Assembly: GCA_017984435.1 (NCBI GenBank)
Contig: JAGNZK010000006.1
Location: forward strand, 16,252-80,251
DNA length: 64,000 bases
Direction: 5' to 3'
DNA from: Nitrosomonas sp.
Lineage (GTDB): Bacteria; Pseudomonadota; Gammaproteobacteria; Burkholderiales; Nitrosomonadaceae
A program made the translations under genes and the position numbers. A model generated the notes under the pieces. That model ran no database searches. It worked only from the letters and a program-made list of their open reading frames with translations, and was not told where the DNA came from. This document shows, piece after piece, positions 10,919 through 22,603 of the stretch; the stretch's first letter is position 1, and each line of letters starts with the position of its first letter.

Positions 10919-11617
10919 ATGAGAACAACATTAATTACAGGTACGAATCGTGGCATTGGACTTGAATTTGTCCGGCAATACGCCATGGGCGGTTGGTGGG
11001 TTTTTGCTTGCTGCCGCAATCCGGTAACAGCCGAGGCGCTGAATCGTTTAGCCGCGCAATATCCGGATCAGATAACCATTCATGCATTGGATGTAGCCAA
11101 TCATGCGCAGATTGAACAATTATCTCAGGCGTTATCCAATCAGACGATTGATTTGTTGATCAATAATGCCGGTGTTTATCCGCCGGGGCAGGGCGATACT
11201 TTCGGGAAAACGGATTATGCCGCATGGGCGTATGCTTTTGAGATCAATACCATGGCGCCGCTTAAAATGGCTGAGGCTTTCATTCAGCAAATTTCCGGAA
11301 GTCAGCTCAAGACCATCATCACGATTACCAGCAAGATGGGCAGCATCGCAGACAATCGTGGTGGCGGCAGTTATATCTACCGTTCCAGCAAATCGGCGGT
11401 GAATATCGTGATGAAGAGTTTAGCGATTGATTTGCAAGCGCAGCGGATTACAGCCGTTTTATTGCATCCGGGATGGGTCAGAACCGATATGGGTGGTCCC
11501 AATGGATTGATTTCGACCGAGCAAAGTGTCACCGGTATGCGTCACGTCATCAGCAATCTGAGATTTGAGGATTCAGGCAAGTTTTATGCGTTTGATGGGC
11601 AGATTGTGCCTTGGTAA
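10919..11617 (+). CDS. Short-chain dehydrogenase/reductase
   Basis: This is a 232-residue NAD(P)-dependent oxidoreductase of unknown substrate. It has the cofactor loop TGTNRGIG at 7-14, the NNAG motif after LINNAGVYPPG, an active-site serine region ITITSKMGS, and the catalytic YxxxK as YRSSK. It lies 20 bases after the yggS-like gene. The last 80 or so bases of its coding sequence reappear, decayed, at 17680-17761, about 6 kb downstream. This suggests an earlier tandem copy or an insertion event. Confidence 0.92.
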   Translation: MRTTLITGTNRGIGLEFVRQYAMGGWWVFACCRNPVTAEALNRLAAQYPDQITIHALDVANHAQIEQLSQALSNQTIDLLINNAGVYPPGQGDTFGKTDYAAWAYAFEINTMAPLKMAEAFIQQISGSQLKTIITITSKMGSIADNRGGGSYIYRSSKSAVNIVMKSLAIDLQAQRITAVLLHPGWVRTDMGGPNGLISTEQSVTGMRHVISNLRFEDSGKFYAFDGQIVPW

Positions 11618-11693: not shown

Positions 11694-14600
11694 ATGAGCC
11701 TAAGCACAGCAGATCAGAAAAATCAAAATGATTTAAAGAAAGAGCTGCAGAATGATCCAAAGAAGCACTCCAAACTGGAGAAATTGGCAGCAGCTCTGAT
11801 AAGTCGGCTTCTCGGTGTACCGATTGCGGTCGCAAAATCTGGCTTTCAACATGGCGGTGATGCCGGTCCAGCAGGCCAGCAAGGACGACGTTTCCGGTTG
11901 GAATGTAAGAAGTACAGCGATACCACTAGCTTGAGTGACCGGGAGTTACTAGGTGAAATAGATGATGCACTGGCTCGAGACACTGCATTAGAAGCCTGGT
12001 TTCTTATAGTAACTCGCAATGTTCCTGAGCAACTCCGACAAAAACTTATGCTAAAAGGTGAAAAAGAAGGGGTGCCTGTAGAAATCATTGATTGGGAGGA
12101 CCACGAACTAGCACCTCTTGCAGCACTATGTGCTTTTGCACCTGATTTGGTAAAAGTTGAATTCTCGGAAGAGGCTGGAACATTGGCATACGCACTTCAA
12201 CCAGTCTCAGCCAACGCGATTGAAATGTTACGACGCAATCTACAGTCTTGGTGCCTTGGTTTTGAGGCATTACGAAGCCGATCGCATGAGAAGCTCAGTA
12301 AAATCTGGAATTTGCCTCGTGAATCGAACGCGATACTGGGACAAAACGCAGCTGGTGGTGCGTGCACAAAGAGAATTAAACGCGCCGCAGTTCATCAAGC
12401 CCTCAACGATTGGTGGTCTGCATCGACAAATGCAGACTCTCCTGCAGCAGTTATTGGTTGGGAGGGAGTTGGAAAGACTTGGGCAACAATTAATTGGTTG
12501 ATCGAGAAAATTGATGAGCAGCCAATCGTCTTGGTTGTTCCGTCTTCTTCAGCAGTTGCCCTTTCTGGTATTTCCGAAACAAAGGTAAAACAGTTCTTAG
12601 CTGTTCGGCTTTATGAGCTCAGTGGAGTTCGAAATACCGAGCATTGGTTACGACGGCTTGATTACCTGCTCAAACGACCCACCCATGAGAAGCCTGTTCT
12701 GACTATTTTCTTTGATGGTTTGAATCAAGAACCATCTGTTCAGTGGCTACCGCTTCTCAAGATTTTGCAAGGTGAATCTTTTTCAACAAAAGTACGAGTA
12801 ATTATCAGCACGCGCAAGCATCACTTTGAAAACAAGCTATCAAGCCTTCGCGGCCTGAATTCTGCGGCGATACCCATTGAAGTGGATAGTTACGATACAG
12901 TACCAGATGGTGAACTCGACCAGATGCTAGCGTTTGAGGGCTTAACTCAGACAGATTTACACCCAGACCTAATTGAGCTAGCCCGTACACCTCGCTTATT
13001 CGCACTTGTAGTTCGATTTCGCGATAGATTGATCGAAGCAGGCCAAGTTACTGTTCACAGACTACTTTGGGAATATGGTCGTGATACCTTGGGAGTCCGT
13101 GCCGGAAAGTCATTCAGCGAAAATGAATGGCAAACCTGGTTAAAAGCGATTGCACAGAAATACCGCGACGGCATCAAAGAGCACTACACAGTTAAATCTC
13201 TTGGGGAATCAGTAAGTCGTCCCGATCTTAACGAATCAGAAAATTATGCACGCCTGAGTGACATCATCGATGGCCGGTTTGCTGAGTCTGACTTATCAGA
13301 CAATTTACACTTTACTCCGACAGTAATCGAACATGCTTTTGGTGTTGCGCTATTAACCCACCTTGACACCGTGGCGGAAGCTAATTTTACGTCACTTCAT
13401 ACCGCACTCACGCAATGGCTCGACCCCATCGTGGGACTTGACGAACGTGCGGAAATCCTGCGAGCGGCTGTTTCTATTTTGCTAGAACAAGATTCTAAGC
13501 CTCCAGTTCAAGCAGAAGTACTTGTCACAACATGGCTGCAAACTCAGAATGTAACCGATAACCACCGCAGAGAATTAGCCGCACTTGCCCCGAATCTCAT
13601 AAATGCATTACTTGTCGCAATAGAGCAATCGGACAGTGATACTCATGCCTCTGCGCGACTTTGGGCTGTTAATGCGTTACGCGTCATTCCACGGGATAAC
13701 TACGCAGCTGTGACCGTGATATTCGCACGAATAAAGCAGTGGTTCAGTATCGTCTCCAGAGATGTCTACCCACATCAAGGCGCAGATTATGAAAAAAATC
13801 GATCTGAAGGCTTTATACGCCGGATTGGCATCGACTCATCAAGAAATGTTACGATTGCCGGGGTAGTGCTGGAGCTTGTTGATCAGTACGATGGCACATT
13901 ACAACTAATAGCACCTTCGATTATGGAAGGATTTCCACTTGCTGATGCGCTACCAATTTTTGAAGCAGCAGCAATCACACTAGCAATTCGAAATCGTTGC
14001 GAAGGCTGGGATGCTCTAAAATGGCTCTGTTTATTGAACGAAATCGATCCAGATGAAACATCCTTGGTTTTACGCGGACATGCAGAAAAAATCCGACAGC
14101 GGCAACCGGAGTCAGGTATAAATCCAGGCATCCCTGATCGTATCGCTGCACTTCTCCTTTGGTTGACCGGCCAGGAGTCAGACGAAACCGCTGCCGCAAT
14201 GATCAATCCGCGCATTAATCACGGATATTCCTATGAAAGGGATTACTTACCGAATCCGGGTCGTAGTTTTTTTGCGCTAGAAAGGCAGCATGCCGACCTT
14301 GCTCTAACCGATCCCGGATCGTCTTTAATCCGGCGTGTGCAAAGAACTAAAGAGTTTTGGTTCGACCCGAACTTCCAACCCCCAACTTCCTTTATTACCG
14401 AAATTCGCGAACTCGCAACTTGCATTGAAGTCGACAAACTCAATAGACACGGCTCATATACCACTGAAGATCACAATTTCAAGCAATTAGAGCATTCTTT
14501 TGCCCGATGCACACCTGATCTGCTGGCTGATATGTTGCGCCGTAAAATCCAGAGTCTCACTTTTTGTCCGGCGGAATCTCGTTATTGGAGTGCTATTCAT

Positions 14601-16352
14601 GTAACCGATCATCTACTTTTGGCCGGTGAAAAAGAAGCTGTGGCAGCGAAAAATCTGCGATTAAGTGGCACCGATCCTGATGGGAAACAAGAATATTACG
14701 TTGCCAATCAGCTTTTATTGGTAGAAATACTGAAACTTGATGCTCGAGCTCAGTTTGATGCATTAATCAGTGCGGGCTTAGAATGTATTTTGGATGACAT
14801 CGGCCAAGTTTTACAGCCGCCCAGCCAGGAAGATGTTGATGCACTGATTACTCGTTATGCTAATGGTTCGTCTAAACAAAAGAACGAACTTCTCCTTCTT
14901 TTATCGATCCATCCAGTTGAGTACAGTGACAGCGCCTGGTCATGGCTAACTGGTTTCGCACACCAAACTGATCATGAGTTCTGTCACATTGCCTTCCAAA
15001 CCCTTGCTCTTTCCAATGCAGCTTGCTTTGGACAGATGTTGATGGCAGAAAATTGGCATTGGAGCGCAAACAAACATTTCTGGATTAATCACTACGGCAC
15101 TGGCGCGATTATCGAAGCGACACAAGCGTTTCCTTTTGATCAAATAGCACCGCGATTAGCACCATGGCGGTTGCTGGAAGCTGCTCGTCTGCGTGGTGCT
15201 CATCCTGAAGAAATACGATTGGCGGCTGAAATAGTAGGATATATTCTATTCGCCGAAAAAGTCAGTGAGCCTGATCCGGGATCAATCTTATCGTTCGACC
15301 GGAATGCTGCCAAGATTTCCCCCTTTTCGTTTTCTATTACACTACACCAAAGTCAAACTGATACCAATGATCCATCTGCTGCATTTAGGGCAACTATGGA
15401 TGATGATGCATGGATAAAAGCGCATCAGCTTGCCACCAAAGTAGCCATTTCTAGAATAGATGAAGCAAGAATATCTGGCGCAGATTTATACCTTACGATT
15501 TTGAGTTCTGCTGATTTCGAACCTGTTCTGAAGTATGCCTCGAATATGGTTGAGCATTGGCTTGAAGGTTCTCGTGAACTTACAACGGATTTCAGGCGCC
15601 GTGTTCACTTGGCAGAAGGCACTTATCTTGCACTTTGTGAAGCGCTTCTTTCTTATGATCCTCCACAAGGTGTGAGTTTGTGGCGATCTCTCCGCGCAAC
15701 GATATCAACACGCTATCTGGGCAAAGCAAGTATTGAGGATTCCTTGCACATGATCTTTCGTGTTCGTAATTCACCAGAAGTCATCGCACTCCGTGAAGAG
15801 TTGCTTGAATTAAAGTACAGTAATACTGATCAAGATTTGTTAGATCTCGCAATTGCAGCCTCACTCAACGGTAAAGCAGATTGGTTGGCCGCCATGATTG
15901 AATCCGATCAAAAATCCACACTTGTATGGAAGCGAAAACGTGGCGTGGTTCTTTCTGGATTTACTGCAAATAATACGCTGCCTGTTGCAGATGCTTGGCC
16001 GGATGGTGAAATTAAAACAGCTCACGCTTTACTACTAACCAGATCAGCACGTTTTCGATGGATTGAAGCCTGTGCTCACCATTGGTGGAAAGTCTATCTT
16101 AAAACGAAGGATCCAGCTGAGGCTTATGCCGCCTGGGTACTTTTCCTCAATGCGGCAGATCCTCGTGCCTGGATATGGATGGATCAAGACATTCAGGCAG
16201 CAAACGATTCCAGTAGTTTCTTTAAACTTAAGTTGAGTCATTTACAGCTCAACCGATCAAAACTAAAGCGAGCCATGGAGAAGCGCACTGAAAAACTTAA
16301 TAAGAAATTATTTGATAGAGATATTTGTACTGGAATAGGTCCCTGGGAATAA
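11694..16352 (+). CDS. Large STAND-type NTPase with N-terminal PD-(D/E)XK nuclease, candidate Avs-like antiviral protein
   Basis: This protein has 1552 residues. The N-terminal 150 residues resemble a restriction-endonuclease fold. They contain a helix rich in Lys and Leu, GGDAG with D56, and RRFRLECKKY with E70 and K72, giving a D...E-x-K catalytic set. A P-loop follows, with Walker A GWEGVGKT at 255-262 and Walker B TIFFDG at 337-342. A sensor-like VIISTRK lies at 369-375, and a winged-helix-like region ELARTPRLFALVVRFRDRL lies near 435-455. The remaining 1000 or more residues look mainly helical and unrelated to anything I recognise, as expected for a ligand-sensing C-terminus. There is no signal peptide or membrane segment. 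Nuclease plus STAND NTPase plus long sensor is the plan of Avs proteins, which recognise phage proteins and then cleave DNA. The family assignment and the antiviral role are inference. Confidence 0.8.
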   Translation: MSLSTADQKNQNDLKKELQNDPKKHSKLEKLAAALISRLLGVPIAVAKSGFQHGGDAGPAGQQGRRFRLECKKYSDTTSLSDRELLGEIDDALARDTALEAWFLIVTRNVPEQLRQKLMLKGEKEGVPVEIIDWEDHELAPLAALCAFAPDLVKVEFSEEAGTLAYALQPVSANAIEMLRRNLQSWCLGFEALRSRSHEKLSKIWNLPRESNAILGQNAAGGACTKRIKRAAVHQALNDWWSASTNADSPAAVIGWEGVGKTWATINWLIEKIDEQPIVLVVPSSSAVALSGISETKVKQFLAVRLYELSGVRNTEHWLRRLDYLLKRPTHEKPVLTIFFDGLNQEPSVQWLPLLKILQGESFSTKVRVIISTRKHHFENKLSSLRGLNSAAIPIEVDSYDTVPDGELDQMLAFEGLTQTDLHPDLIELARTPRLFALVVRFRDRLIEAGQVTVHRLLWEYGRDTLGVRAGKSFSENEWQTWLKAIAQKYRDGIKEHYTVKSLGESVSRPDLNESENYARLSDIIDGRFAESDLSDNLHFTPTVIEHAFGVALLTHLDTVAEANFTSLHTALTQWLDPIVGLDERAEILRAAVSILLEQDSKPPVQAEVLVTTWLQTQNVTDNHRRELAALAPNLINALLVAIEQSDSDTHASARLWAVNALRVIPRDNYAAVTVIFARIKQWFSIVSRDVYPHQGADYEKNRSEGFIRRIGIDSSRNVTIAGVVLELVDQYDGTLQLIAPSIMEGFPLADALPIFEAAAITLAIRNRCEGWDALKWLCLLNEIDPDETSLVLRGHAEKIRQRQPESGINPGIPDRIAALLLWLTGQESDETAAAMINPRINHGYSYERDYLPNPGRSFFALERQHADLALTDPGSSLIRRVQRTKEFWFDPNFQPPTSFITEIRELATCIEVDKLNRHGSYTTEDHNFKQLEHSFARCTPDLLADMLRRKIQSLTFCPAESRYWSAIHVTDHLLLAGEKEAVAAKNLRLSGTDPDGKQEYYVANQLLLVEILKLDARAQFDALISAGLECILDDIGQVLQPPSQEDVDALITRYANGSSKQKNELLLLLSIHPVEYSDSAWSWLTGFAHQTDHEFCHIAFQTLALSNAACFGQMLMAENWHWSANKHFWINHYGTGAIIEATQAFPFDQIAPRLAPWRLLEAARLRGAHPEEIRLAAEIVGYILFAEKVSEPDPGSILSFDRNAAKISPFSFSITLHQSQTDTNDPSAAFRATMDDDAWIKAHQLATKVAISRIDEARISGADLYLTILSSADFEPVLKYASNMVEHWLEGSRELTTDFRRRVHLAEGTYLALCEALLSYDPPQGVSLWRSLRATISTRYLGKASIEDSLHMIFRVRNSPEVIALREELLELKYSNTDQDLLDLAIAASLNGKADWLAAMIESDQKSTLVWKRKRGVVLSGFTANNTLPVADAWPDGEIKTAHALLLTRSARFRWIEACAHHWWKVYLKTKDPAEAYAAWVLFLNAADPRAWIWMDQDIQAANDSSSFFKLKLSHLQLNRSKLKRAMEKRTEKLNKKLFDRDICTGIGPWE

Positions 16353-16489: not shown

Positions 16490-17494
16490 CTATTGACCGA
16501 TAGCATCAACCCGGAAAGTCTCTCCGCAGTTGGAACTACTCTGCGCTGGCGCATTCATAAGCAATTTCTCGAGATCGGCGCCTGGGGCTAGGTCGGCAAT
16601 CAGATTCAATTGAATCTCCACCAACATGCCTTGGTCGCAATTGAGCTTGATACGCTCCTTGGCGGTAGATCCCAGTACGGCGGCTACGCGATTGAGAAAA
16701 TCTTCGGTACGGACCTGCTGACCGATTCGGCGATTCATAAAATAAGCCATGCCGGAATCATTGAACTGACGTGTCAAATCCACCGATAAATCAAAAAATT
16801 CTTCCATGGCTTTAGTCTGGCAAGTGCCATGTTTATGCCATTCGTGACGCTCCAGACAAGAGCCTGCTGTCACGCTGGGCATGACTTCCGCTAATGCAGC
16901 TTGCGAAGTGGAATCCAATTGAACCGCCGGATAATCACAGAAATTATCTTTTTTTCCTTTGACTTCACCGCAGAATCCGTAGCTTATGCCACATTTTTGT
17001 TTATTAGGCCATAAGCCATGCAAAGTAAAATGTTTGGCTTGATAGACGTGCGGATCGGTAATTTTACACTCAGGTTTTTGTGGTTTGGTTTCACAGAAAG
17101 CGGGTTGCCATGACAGTGCGAGCACATAACTATCCGCTTGACCGGCAACACTGCAACTATTGTTGCCGTTGCCTCCGGTTCCGCCGCCAGTTGTTATCTG
17201 GGCTTGACCGCATGCAGCGCTAACCCAACGCTCCTTAGGGTTAGCAGCAGGCAGGATAATCCGGTACCAGTCGGGATAATTCGGATTAGTCACTTCGATA
17301 ATGTTGTATTGGTTACCCGCCAGAATTTGCGCATTATCCGGGTTGGTCGATTTGTTTTTTGAAACATAAGCCGGGCAGGATTGCTGCGCAGAGAAAACGC
17401 CTGTTGCTTTGTTTGCCCAGATTGGGTGGATATACCCGATTGTTAATATGGTCAGAAAAATCTGAAGAACGACACTTTTTCGTAGACATATCAT
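16490..17494 (-). CDS. Secreted ribonuclease T2-family protein with N-terminal SH3-like domain
   Basis: This is an exported endoribonuclease that cleaves RNA through a 2',3'-cyclic phosphate. I take ATG 17494 as the start because GAGGAGA lies 6 bases upstream and a signal peptide follows directly (MICLRKSVVL...HPIWA). The protein is 334 residues. Residues about 30-100 form a region typical of bacterial SH3-like domains (GVFSAQQSCPAY ... RWVSAACG). A Gly-rich linker then leads to the T2 domain, with both active-site motifs: HGLWP at 159-163 and HEWHKHGTC at 217-225. Multiple cysteines fit periplasmic or extracellular disulfides. It converges with the STAND gene and is probably unrelated in function. 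Confidence 0.93.
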   Translation of the reverse strand: MICLRKSVVLQIFLTILTIGYIHPIWANKATGVFSAQQSCPAYVSKNKSTNPDNAQILAGNQYNIIEVTNPNYPDWYRIILPAANPKERWVSAACGQAQITTGGGTGGNGNNSCSVAGQADSYVLALSWQPAFCETKPQKPECKITDPHVYQAKHFTLHGLWPNKQKCGISYGFCGEVKGKKDNFCDYPAVQLDSTSQAALAEVMPSVTAGSCLERHEWHKHGTCQTKAMEEFFDLSVDLTRQFNDSGMAYFMNRRIGQQVRTEDFLNRVAAVLGSTAKERIKLNCDQGMLVEIQLNLIADLAPGADLEKLLMNAPAQSSSNCGETFRVDAIGQ

Positions 17495-17679
17495 TTTATT
17501 TCTCCTCGATGGATTAGGCAAGAATAAAACGCAAACGGGTCTTGTATGACTAATTTATCATTATTCAGATGGATCATTGAATTAACTGTGATATTTACCA
17601 CACTAAAACCGGCTTATTTTGAACACCAGATACTAGAAACACGTGTGAATACAACTGGATAATTATCTCAATCGCGTAA

Positions 17680-17761
17680 AGTATCGCATATCATCAGCAG
17701 CCTGAAATTTGAGGATTCCGGCAAGTTTTATGCGTTTGACGGGTAGGGTGTGTCTTGGTAA
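17680..17761 (+). pseudogene. Fragment of a second SDR gene (3' end only)
   Basis: These bases match the last 80 or so bases of the SDR gene at 10919-11617, with a few substitutions and a 1-base difference. In frame it reads SLKFEDSGKFYAFDG, then an in-frame TAG, then GVSW and a stop. The intact copy reads NLRFEDSGKFYAFDG and ends QIVPW. The rest of this copy is missing. It shows that the 6 kb between the two copies (STAND NTPase and RNase T2) interrupts what was once a different arrangement. Confidence 0.75.
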
Positions 17762-20791: not shown

Positions 20792-22603
20792 ATGCCGATT
20801 GTAAATGATTACACAGCATTGCTTACAGGCTCATACTGGGGGGGTATCGAAGTTACCAATCGTCCGACCCTAGTAACGTATTCCTTTGCCACTAGCGCCC
20901 CGGGCACCGACGAAGGCGTGATTGGGACACCTGCTTTTGCCACCTTTCAGGCGTTTACTGCTACCCAGGAAGCGCAAACTCGGACAGCACTTGCCGAGTG
21001 GGGAAATGCCAGTGGCCTTACTTTCATTGAGGTACCCGCCGGTGCCAGCGAAATTACCTTTTCCGCCTACGATTTCACCGGCTCCCCATACGATGGTGCC
21101 GGTGGGGTTGGCTTTTACCCTTTCGGTAATTGGAATTTTTTCTCTTTTCCGAACTATCTCGACGGTTGGAATGGTGCGGGAAATGTCCTGCTGAATAGCG
21201 ACTTTATCACTGCCGAACAATTCGATTATGGTCTTATTCTGCACGAAATCGGACATACTCTCGGACTGAAACATCCCACCGAAACCTGGACGAGCGCTGC
21301 CGGTATTCTGCACGACCAGGTACTAGCGGTGGACGATCCCAGTTTGACGATCATGAGCCAGCTAGGTGGCCCGCTTGTTCATTTGGCCGCTCTCGACATT
21401 GCCGCCATCCAGAATATCTATGGGTTCAATAGCGCTGATTTGACCAACTGGTCCTACGATAATCTTAATAATATCCTGACTCAGACCGCTGGTGCCGGCG
21501 CTGTCACGTTGCGCGGCACCAATATTCGTGATGTGCTCAATGGCGGCACAGGTAATAATACATTGACCGGCTTATTTGGCGATGACTCGATATTCGGTAA
21601 CGGCGGTAATGATTTGATGTTTGGCGGTTCGGGCAACGATTTACTGAATGGTGGTGCCGGTAACGATACCATGCATGGTGGCTTCGGCGATGATAAATAC
21701 GTCATTAATACTGCGCTCGATCAAATCATTGAATTCGCCGGTGAAGGCATCGATACGGCGACTTCGAGTGTCACCTATACATTGCCTGCTGAAGTTGAAA
21801 AATTGACACTCTCCGGTACCGCAGCAATCAATGGCATCGGCAATACGCTCAATAACACGATCACTGGTAATACTGCTGTGAACACGCTGACGGGAAATGA
21901 TGGTAACGATACGCTCGACGGCAAGCTTGGCAATGACATTCTGATCGGAGGGGCAGGTAACGATACCTATATTCTGGATAACAGTAGTGATCAGGTGACC
22001 GAACTGGCCGGTGCAGGTACCGATACCATTAAGGTGGGTTTTACTTTCGATATGGCACCGATCGCCAATGTCGAGAAACTGACACTGACAGGCACACTGG
22101 CGATCAACGGTAGCGGCAATAGTTTAGCCAATACGCTGACAGGGAACGCCGCTGCAAACATACTCAACGGTAACAGCGGTGCCGATAAACTCCTGGGTGC
22201 CGCGGGTGATGATAATCTAAATGGTGGTCTTGGCACCGACACATTAACAGGCGGACTTGGTCGCGATACCTTGTCCGGTGGCAGCACGGATATTGATATC
22301 TTTGTCTATACCGCAATCGCAGATAGCGGTATCGGTGTCGCTAATCGCGATAGTATTACCGATTTCGATGCGGTCGATCGTATCAGTCTTGCGGCAATTG
22401 ATACCAACCCAGCGTTAGCGGGCGATCAAGCGTTTACCTTCGTTGGTAATGGTGCGATCACGGGTAATTGGCAAGTGGCCTATCAGATTGCCGGTGCCGA
22501 CACCCTAGTATCGATCAACGCGACAGGCACTCCGGCAGTAGAGATGGAAATATTATTAGTGGGTTACAGCGCTGGATTGACGTCGTTGGATTTTTTGTTG
22601 TAA
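20792..22603 (+). CDS. Serralysin-like M10 metalloprotease with RTX repeats
   Basis: This is a 603-residue secreted zinc protease. The zinc motif is HEIGHTLGLKH at 151-161, followed by a Met-turn-like TIMSQL. The C-terminal 350 residues carry many Ca-binding RTX nonapeptides (such as GGSGNDLLNGGAGNDT). They also contain duplicated blocks around VEKLTLSGTAAING and VEKLTLTGTLAING. There is no N-terminal signal peptide, as expected for export by a type I system, and the protein ends in the hydrophobic LTSLDFLL. No ABC/MFP/TolC export genes lie next to it. A second, RTX-poor M10 protease is at 37648-39186. Confidence 0.93.
   Translation: MPIVNDYTALLTGSYWGGIEVTNRPTLVTYSFATSAPGTDEGVIGTPAFATFQAFTATQEAQTRTALAEWGNASGLTFIEVPAGASEITFSAYDFTGSPYDGAGGVGFYPFGNWNFFSFPNYLDGWNGAGNVLLNSDFITAEQFDYGLILHEIGHTLGLKHPTETWTSAAGILHDQVLAVDDPSLTIMSQLGGPLVHLAALDIAAIQNIYGFNSADLTNWSYDNLNNILTQTAGAGAVTLRGTNIRDVLNGGTGNNTLTGLFGDDSIFGNGGNDLMFGGSGNDLLNGGAGNDTMHGGFGDDKYVINTALDQIIEFAGEGIDTATSSVTYTLPAEVEKLTLSGTAAINGIGNTLNNTITGNTAVNTLTGNDGNDTLDGKLGNDILIGGAGNDTYILDNSSDQVTELAGAGTDTIKVGFTFDMAPIANVEKLTLTGTLAINGSGNSLANTLTGNAAANILNGNSGADKLLGAAGDDNLNGGLGTDTLTGGLGRDTLSGGSTDIDIFVYTAIADSGIGVANRDSITDFDAVDRISLAAIDTNPALAGDQAFTFVGNGAITGNWQVAYQIAGADTLVSINATGTPAVEMEILLVGYSAGLTSLDFLL

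Follow-up and report, generated by a model that had tools for sequence, protein, structure and literature searches.

Background

Avs and bNACHT proteins are the bacterial counterparts of the NLR immune receptors of animals and plants. In published accounts, Avs1-4 carry nuclease effectors that kill the cell when phage proteins are sensed (PMC12931631), and bNACHT25 and bNACHT32, of bNACHT clade 6, combine an N-terminal PD-(D/E)XK DNase effector, which is required for defence, with a NACHT module and, at the C-terminus, a helical domain (PMC12169576). Here we examine a gene within a 64,000-nucleotide stretch of a Nitrosomonas sp. genome (assembly GCA_017984435.1, contig JAGNZK010000006.1, positions 16,252 to 80,251; the whole stretch is referred to as the window). 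The gene encodes a STAND NTPase preceded by a putative PD-(D/E)XK nuclease, and a sequence-only reading had proposed it as a candidate Avs-like antiviral protein. The present analysis supports this proposal: we consider it probable that the gene encodes a single-gene abortive-infection receptor of the Avs/bNACHT kind with an Mrr-type DNase effector, whose antiviral function we infer. It is well supported that the family lacks a model in the libraries searched and that its kind is already known.

Domain architecture and conservation of the STAND-nuclease protein

The predicted reading frame of 1552 residues proved to be intact, and the position of its start codon is common to close relatives. 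The gene and its parts are as follows.

11694..16352, + strand: STAND NTPase gene with N-terminal PD-(D/E)XK nuclease, 1552 amino acids, intact open reading frame from ATG to stop
11751..12113, + strand: predicted Mrr-type PD-(D/E)XK nuclease domain, residues 20-140 (invariant residues, helix-strand order of the model, weak Mrr_cat match)
12381..13103, + strand: STAND/NACHT-type NTPase, residues 230-470 (motifs, Pfam matches in relatives, structure matches)
12456..12479, + strand: Walker A, residues 255-262, G255-x-x-G258-x-G260-K261-T262 (sequence and alignment)
12702..12719, + strand: Walker B, residues 337-342, with D341, then G342-L-N344 (sequence and alignment)
13104..13493, + strand: helical/winged-helix-like part of the STAND module, residues 471-600 (model, partly of low confidence)
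13494..16349, + strand: HEAT/ARM-like alpha-superhelix, presumed sensor, residues 601-1552 (predicted structure)

Effector, STAND module and a large C-terminal repeat part, the presumed sensor, are thus joined in one protein, in agreement with the nuclease-NTPase-sensor plan of Avs proteins that had been claimed for it.

Relatives were gathered by a whole-genome search, by tblastn against plasmids, which revealed relatives in 11 records, and by a pattern-plus-tblastn scan of Genome Taxonomy Database (GTDB) genomes, which revealed relatives at 32 loci. We aligned the window protein with 23 of these 32 genome-contig loci and three plasmid loci (27 proteins, with identities to the window protein ranging from 78% to 21%). 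Excluded were loci with a split or truncated frame (L022, L028, L030, L041, L044 and L049), a locus containing N letters (L046), two near copies of L048 (L051 and L052) and a relative in genome G309 with 28% identity. In the nuclease part E29, G50, Q52, G54, D56, E70, K72 and Y74 are identical in all 27 proteins, as are G255, G258, G260, K261, W263, D341 and G342 in the NTPase part, while T262, N344 and R374 are identical in 26. Because members at 21-23% identity retain the nuclease and Walker residues, chance conservation is excluded. D56, E70 and K72, which had been singled out as a nuclease-like core, and the Walker A and Walker B motifs are therefore located where the sequence-only reading placed them and are kept across the alignment.

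The nuclease motif of the window protein reads E29, Q52-x-G54-x-D56 and E70-x-K72-x-Y74, and we take the stretch around D56 together with E70-C-K72-K-Y74 to resemble the Mrr type of restriction-endonuclease fold. Structure prediction, proposed earlier as a check for a restriction-endonuclease core, was favourable in the order of its elements, since the model of residues 1-690 places a helix at 22-40 and strands at 67-72, 101-106 and 129-132 with helices between them, and less so around D56, where confidence is low. When residues 1-690 of the relatives were scanned, Pfam Mrr_cat weakly matched three of the 27 proteins (E 0.058 at best) and NA-iREase1, a model of inactive NACHT-associated restriction endonucleases, matched one (E 0.0032). 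A D...(E/Q)xK catalytic motif lying in a predicted alpha-beta core indicates an Mrr-type PD-(D/E)XK nuclease, and the N-terminal domain would be expected to cleave DNA.

The Walker motifs are followed by STAND-type helical domains, which identifies the central module as a STAND (NACHT-like) NTPase. Pfam NACHT (PF05729) matched 10 of the 27 proteins at E ≤ 0.1 (best 5.8e-7), the window protein itself being without a match. VIA-align of the residue 1-690 model matched the NTPase part to the NACHT domains of NLRP9, NOD2 and NLRP3, with alignments to the NLR NACHT-helical region extending to residue ~625. Animal NLRs carry an inflammasome adaptor domain at the N-terminus and leucine-rich repeats at the C-terminus, whereas the window protein has a nuclease at its N-terminus and an alpha-superhelix at its C-terminus.

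The C-terminal part, described in the sequence-only reading as a helical region of about 1000 residues, is predicted to form an all-helical HEAT/ARM-like superhelix over residues 590-1552 (~960 residues) at a mean predicted local distance difference test score (pLDDT) of 90.6. Avs4 was absent among the best 50 of 848 Foldseek matches of this part, which says little by itself, and no bacterial immune protein occurred among its best 50 VIA matches, which is uninformative either way. Relatives from Nitrospinota and Latescibacterota (L032, L034 and L037) are missing ~75-80 residues in the region equivalent to window residues 1180-1275, close to where the superhelix is least conserved.

Relationship to described Avs and bNACHT proteins

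The best Foldseek match of the residue 1-690 model was the solved antiviral protein Avs4 (PDB 8dgf; AVAST type 4), whose chains of 1541 and 1534 residues are close in length to the window protein and whose plan, presumably an N-terminal nuclease, a STAND NTPase and a large C-terminal part, has the same order. However, the PADLOC Avs4 model matched neither the window's genome (E ≤ 1e-10) nor the 27 relatives (E ≤ 0.1). The window protein alone gave no significant match in Pfam, NCBIfam (20.0) or PADLOC (2.0.0), and the NCBIfam search and a sequence search of the PDB returned nothing relevant. The comparison with Avs and STAND hidden Markov models that had been suggested therefore gave a mixed outcome: none of the PADLOC Avs models matched the window protein at E ≤ 0.1, and among the 27 relatives, beside the NACHT matches, the same threshold admitted solely Avs2, in two relatives with the N-terminal part (best 0.012) and in one at full length (0.029). 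The Avs models met by name in PADLOC were Avs2, Avs4 and Avs5, and we assume that Avs1 and Avs3 models are held there too. The Avs4 model matched nothing in 303 genomes belonging to the class and the Avs5 model nothing in 229, absences that mean little as 14 controls were also silent.

We used hhalign to compare the family with two proteins matching the PADLOC Avs2 models (PDLC02164 and PDLC02166). The alignment is co-linear over nuclease and NTPase and weak (E 0.00057 at a probability of 29% for the N-terminal part; E 0.0012 at 19% for the full length), with nothing aligned past column 402, and a D-x-(I/L)-N-(E/Q) sequence at Walker B is found both in Avs2 and in the STAND-nuclease family. 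With bNACHT clade 6, which was compared by description only, the family shares an effector followed by an NTPase, but where the clade's description gives an NCH1 domain (PMC12169576), the window family has ~950 residues after its STAND module. No NCH1-named Pfam match was found in the window protein, the scan of relatives covering residues 1-690.

The window protein is thus Avs-like by plan, yet lies outside the described Avs types as filed in PADLOC. One explanation is that it belongs to a divergent lineage of a described Avs or bNACHT clade that merely lacks a profile, in which case its trigger (terminase, portal or other) may already be known. This would leave the mechanism proposed below unchanged, denying only the separateness of the family. 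The structural match to Avs4, the co-linearity with Avs2-matching proteins and the effector-NTPase order of bNACHT clade 6 speak for it; the near silence of the Avs profiles and the end of the hhalign match before the C-terminal part speak against it, the bNACHT clades having been compared by description only, and on balance we regard it as rather unlikely. Tentatively, and with somewhat more conviction, we suggest that the family may be a separate Avs-like type, an Mrr-type nuclease-NACHT protein driven by a ~950-residue HEAT/ARM-like superhelix that would read a phage component unlike those of Avs1-5 and would spread via gene 3′ ends and plasmids. PADLOC 2.0.0 and NCBIfam 20.0 hold no name for the family, and we found no paper on it in the open-licence PubMed Central literature, searched with no family name to go by.

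Relatives are located beside known defence genes

If the protein were antiviral, its homologues might be expected in defence islands rather than uniformly in housekeeping contexts, and relatives did prove to be enriched beside known defence genes. Up to three predicted genes per side were collected at 18 of the 32 loci, giving 105 proteins, as contig ends cut the flanks of L026 and L036. For the controls, six genes lying at least ~44 kb from the STAND gene on the same contig were taken in each of 18 genomes (108 proteins), with positions fixed before scanning; 18 of 19 such stretches were used, L120 being omitted as its partner L040 is a near twin of L033. At E ≤ 1e-10, the neighbours matched 298 PADLOC models and the controls 19, a ratio that overstates the effect, as it counts models rather than proteins and many models exist per gene (29 families for one GajB). 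Eight of ten neighbour proteins chosen as promising for individual PADLOC search matched at the same threshold. GajB adjoins the Sedimenticola relative (1.3e-267), a UG9-type reverse transcriptase and RTasPolA adjoin the Sphingomonas relative (8.1e-238 and 1.7e-174), and a type I restriction enzyme and CBASS E1-E2 are found near the Latescibacterota (1.4e-158) and Paraburkholderia (1.1e-180) relatives, respectively. Matches to LmuB/mad3 and DrmMI/type IIG may reflect generic ATPase or methylase similarity, and mad3 and AriA were also seen among the controls. On plasmids, the neighbourhoods include XamI, N6-methylase, SAVED and DEAD-box genes (Manganitrophus), VapC, an AAA ATPase and RloB (Sphingobium) and HamA (Methylobacterium). 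The window is an exception: the neighbours of its STAND gene (metG, an alanine-racemase-type gene, a short-chain dehydrogenase/reductase (SDR) gene, an RNase T2 gene and a pyridine-nucleotide oxidoreductase gene) have no convincing PADLOC match, and the enrichment seen beside relatives does not extend to its own surroundings.

These neighbourhoods also bear on the possibility that the receptor is directed at plasmids or other mobile DNA, or works for a mobile element against its rivals, rather than acting in phage defence proper. The architecture is silent on what is sensed, and relatives occur on plasmids, one of them between IS66 elements and another beside an integrase and VapC. However, genome-contig relatives adjoin Gabija, defence-associated reverse transcriptase, CBASS and type I restriction genes, whose systems are known chiefly as defences against phages, and no relative was detected in 50,697 phage records or among 127 pattern matches in viral contigs, which argues against a mobile-element role; we judge this explanation improbable.

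The gene lists of the relatives contain no constant neighbour (sequence similarity between neighbours was not computed), and we claim no partner. In two Latescibacterota genomes (L034:1649-12260 and L037:8874-19463) the relative lies within the same gene set, with four neighbours 73-94% identical; the last gene of the set is a type I restriction enzyme (L037), and the relative may be embedded in a restriction operon. Directly upstream of the relative on an Azospirillum oryzae plasmid (L007:4676-9883) a gene encodes a 1735-residue P-loop protein, and IS66 elements flank the pair. This protein, possibly another STAND-type receptor, was rejected as a partner, having its own P-loop and aligning only around the NTPase (hhalign probability 7.9%).

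Sparse distribution and possible transfer of the gene

Counting the window's own genome each time, a match occurs in 3 of 61 genomes of the set of relatives, in 3 of 369 sampled from the class and in 4 of 398 sampled from the phylum. The GTDB scan found relatives in several phyla, among them Sedimenticola, Azospirillum, Bradyrhizobium, Paraburkholderia, Pseudomonas, Stenotrophomonas, several Sphingomonadales, Desulfoferrobacter, Nitrospinota, Dadabacteria and Latescibacterota. The Azospirillum relative shares 62% of its residues with the window protein, that of Desulfoferrobacter 61% and that of Stenotrophomonas 38%; N. communis isolate mag.23 carries a copy at 78% and N. ureae Nm13 a broken copy. 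The frame is split or truncated at 6 of the 32 loci, including three of the four Nitrosomonas loci of the scan (L022, L028 and L030), of which L028 is from a metagenome-assembled genome and its broken frame could be an assembly error. On the tree the Pseudomonadota label requires two changes, and 0% of 200 bootstrap trees have one, a hint of transfer; but the starred branches force just one change, and the phylum labels are clearly clustered (1 of 500 shuffles was as low). The gene may thus have been transferred.

A host-regulatory STAND protein, that is, a signalling ATPase with an N-terminal fold that binds DNA instead of cutting it, would be in keeping with the existence of bacterial STAND transcription regulators, the low-confidence active-site stretch and the lone NA-iREase1 match, but is very improbable given that D56, E70 and K72 are invariant, unlike in an inactivated fold, and that sparse presence, broken frames and defence-gene neighbours ill suit a housekeeping role.

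No relative with another effector was found in plasmid searches using the C-terminal part or the Sphingobium relative, leaving aside a Sphingomonas changnyeongensis match that was not opened, and effector swapping was set aside. An Ensifer match aligning only from residue 259 is a frame of 1518 residues that likewise begins with a nuclease of this kind.

Proposed mechanism

On the strength of these observations and of the precedents set by Avs1-4 and bNACHT25/32 (PMC12931631; PMC12169576), we infer nuclease activity, ligand sensing, oligomerisation and cell death, in the following order. At rest, the C-terminal alpha-superhelix would keep the ATP/ADP-binding STAND module inactive. Binding of a conserved phage component, produced during infection, to the superhelix would cause the STAND module to change its nucleotide state and oligomerise in an NTP-dependent manner, joining the N-terminal Mrr-type PD-(D/E)XK domains. 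Paired nuclease domains may then degrade phage and host DNA, so that phage production would stop, probably at the cost of the cell. A family that shares this effector and switch while having a superhelix of its own, extending from Nitrosomonas to Latescibacterota, broadens the range of sensors to be paired with phage triggers, and ammonia-oxidising bacteria gain a candidate antiviral gene.

Candidate insertion site at the SDR gene

The surroundings of the STAND gene contain the following features.

10919..11617, + strand: SDR gene just upstream of the STAND gene (in N. oligotropha, the left edge of the insertion is the stop codon of the corresponding SDR gene)
11546..11617, + strand: last 72 bp of the SDR gene, candidate recombination site (copies adjoin the STAND gene elsewhere, and one lies at 17687-17761)
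16490..17521, − strand: gene of the RNase T2 family, located after the STAND gene and before the SDR remnant
17687..17761, + strand: degenerate SDR 3′ end (nhmmer E 1e-13; translation with a stop)

The STAND gene is mildly odd in composition (GC 45.7%; GC at third codon positions, GC3, 0.375): GC3 is 0.515-0.556 in the upstream metG, alanine-racemase-type and SDR genes, and 0.374 in thyA of the same window. In N. oligotropha Nm45 (L030) the STAND gene is also preceded by an SDR gene (76% protein identity to that of the window), and in two other Nitrosomonas genomes (L091 and L094) the flanks of the N. oligotropha site are present while the STAND gene is missing. L030 and L091 match at 92% as far as the SDR stop codon, and their alignment resumes after 4,854 bp in L030 and 56 bp in L091. 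In N. communis, similarity to the window begins 72 bp before the SDR end, a full SDR gene being present on another contig. The impression that the window segment is inserted therefore holds insofar as empty sites of the N. oligotropha type exist and the same SDR gene is present in the window, where the right edge is not fixed. From these alignments, the SDR 3′ end may fairly be taken as a recombination site, and it is possibly an integration hotspot; both flanks of the SDR gene vary across Nitrosomonas. No integrase was identified among the window genes examined or ten further proteins, to which the look was limited.

Sequence on the 5′ side is available for five Nitrosomonas copies (the window, L014, L016, L030 and L028), and in each of them an SDR 3′ end, complete or truncated, lies ~70-105 bp ahead of the STAND gene. 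RNase T2 was considered as a partner and rejected; since it occurs downstream of the SDR gene without the STAND gene in two genomes, it is probably not part of the system. In another Nitrosomonas genome (G020; L084:2727-4006), DUF6978 and DUF1828/DUF1829 genes directly follow the SDR gene. As DUF1829 is reported to belong to a validated defence system (PMC13092281), the SDR site may hold other defence genes. Further along the window (20792-22603), a gene encodes an RTX-repeat protein that weakly matches an M10 metallopeptidase, and RTX-repeat matches recur downstream of the SDR gene in several other Nitrosomonas genomes.
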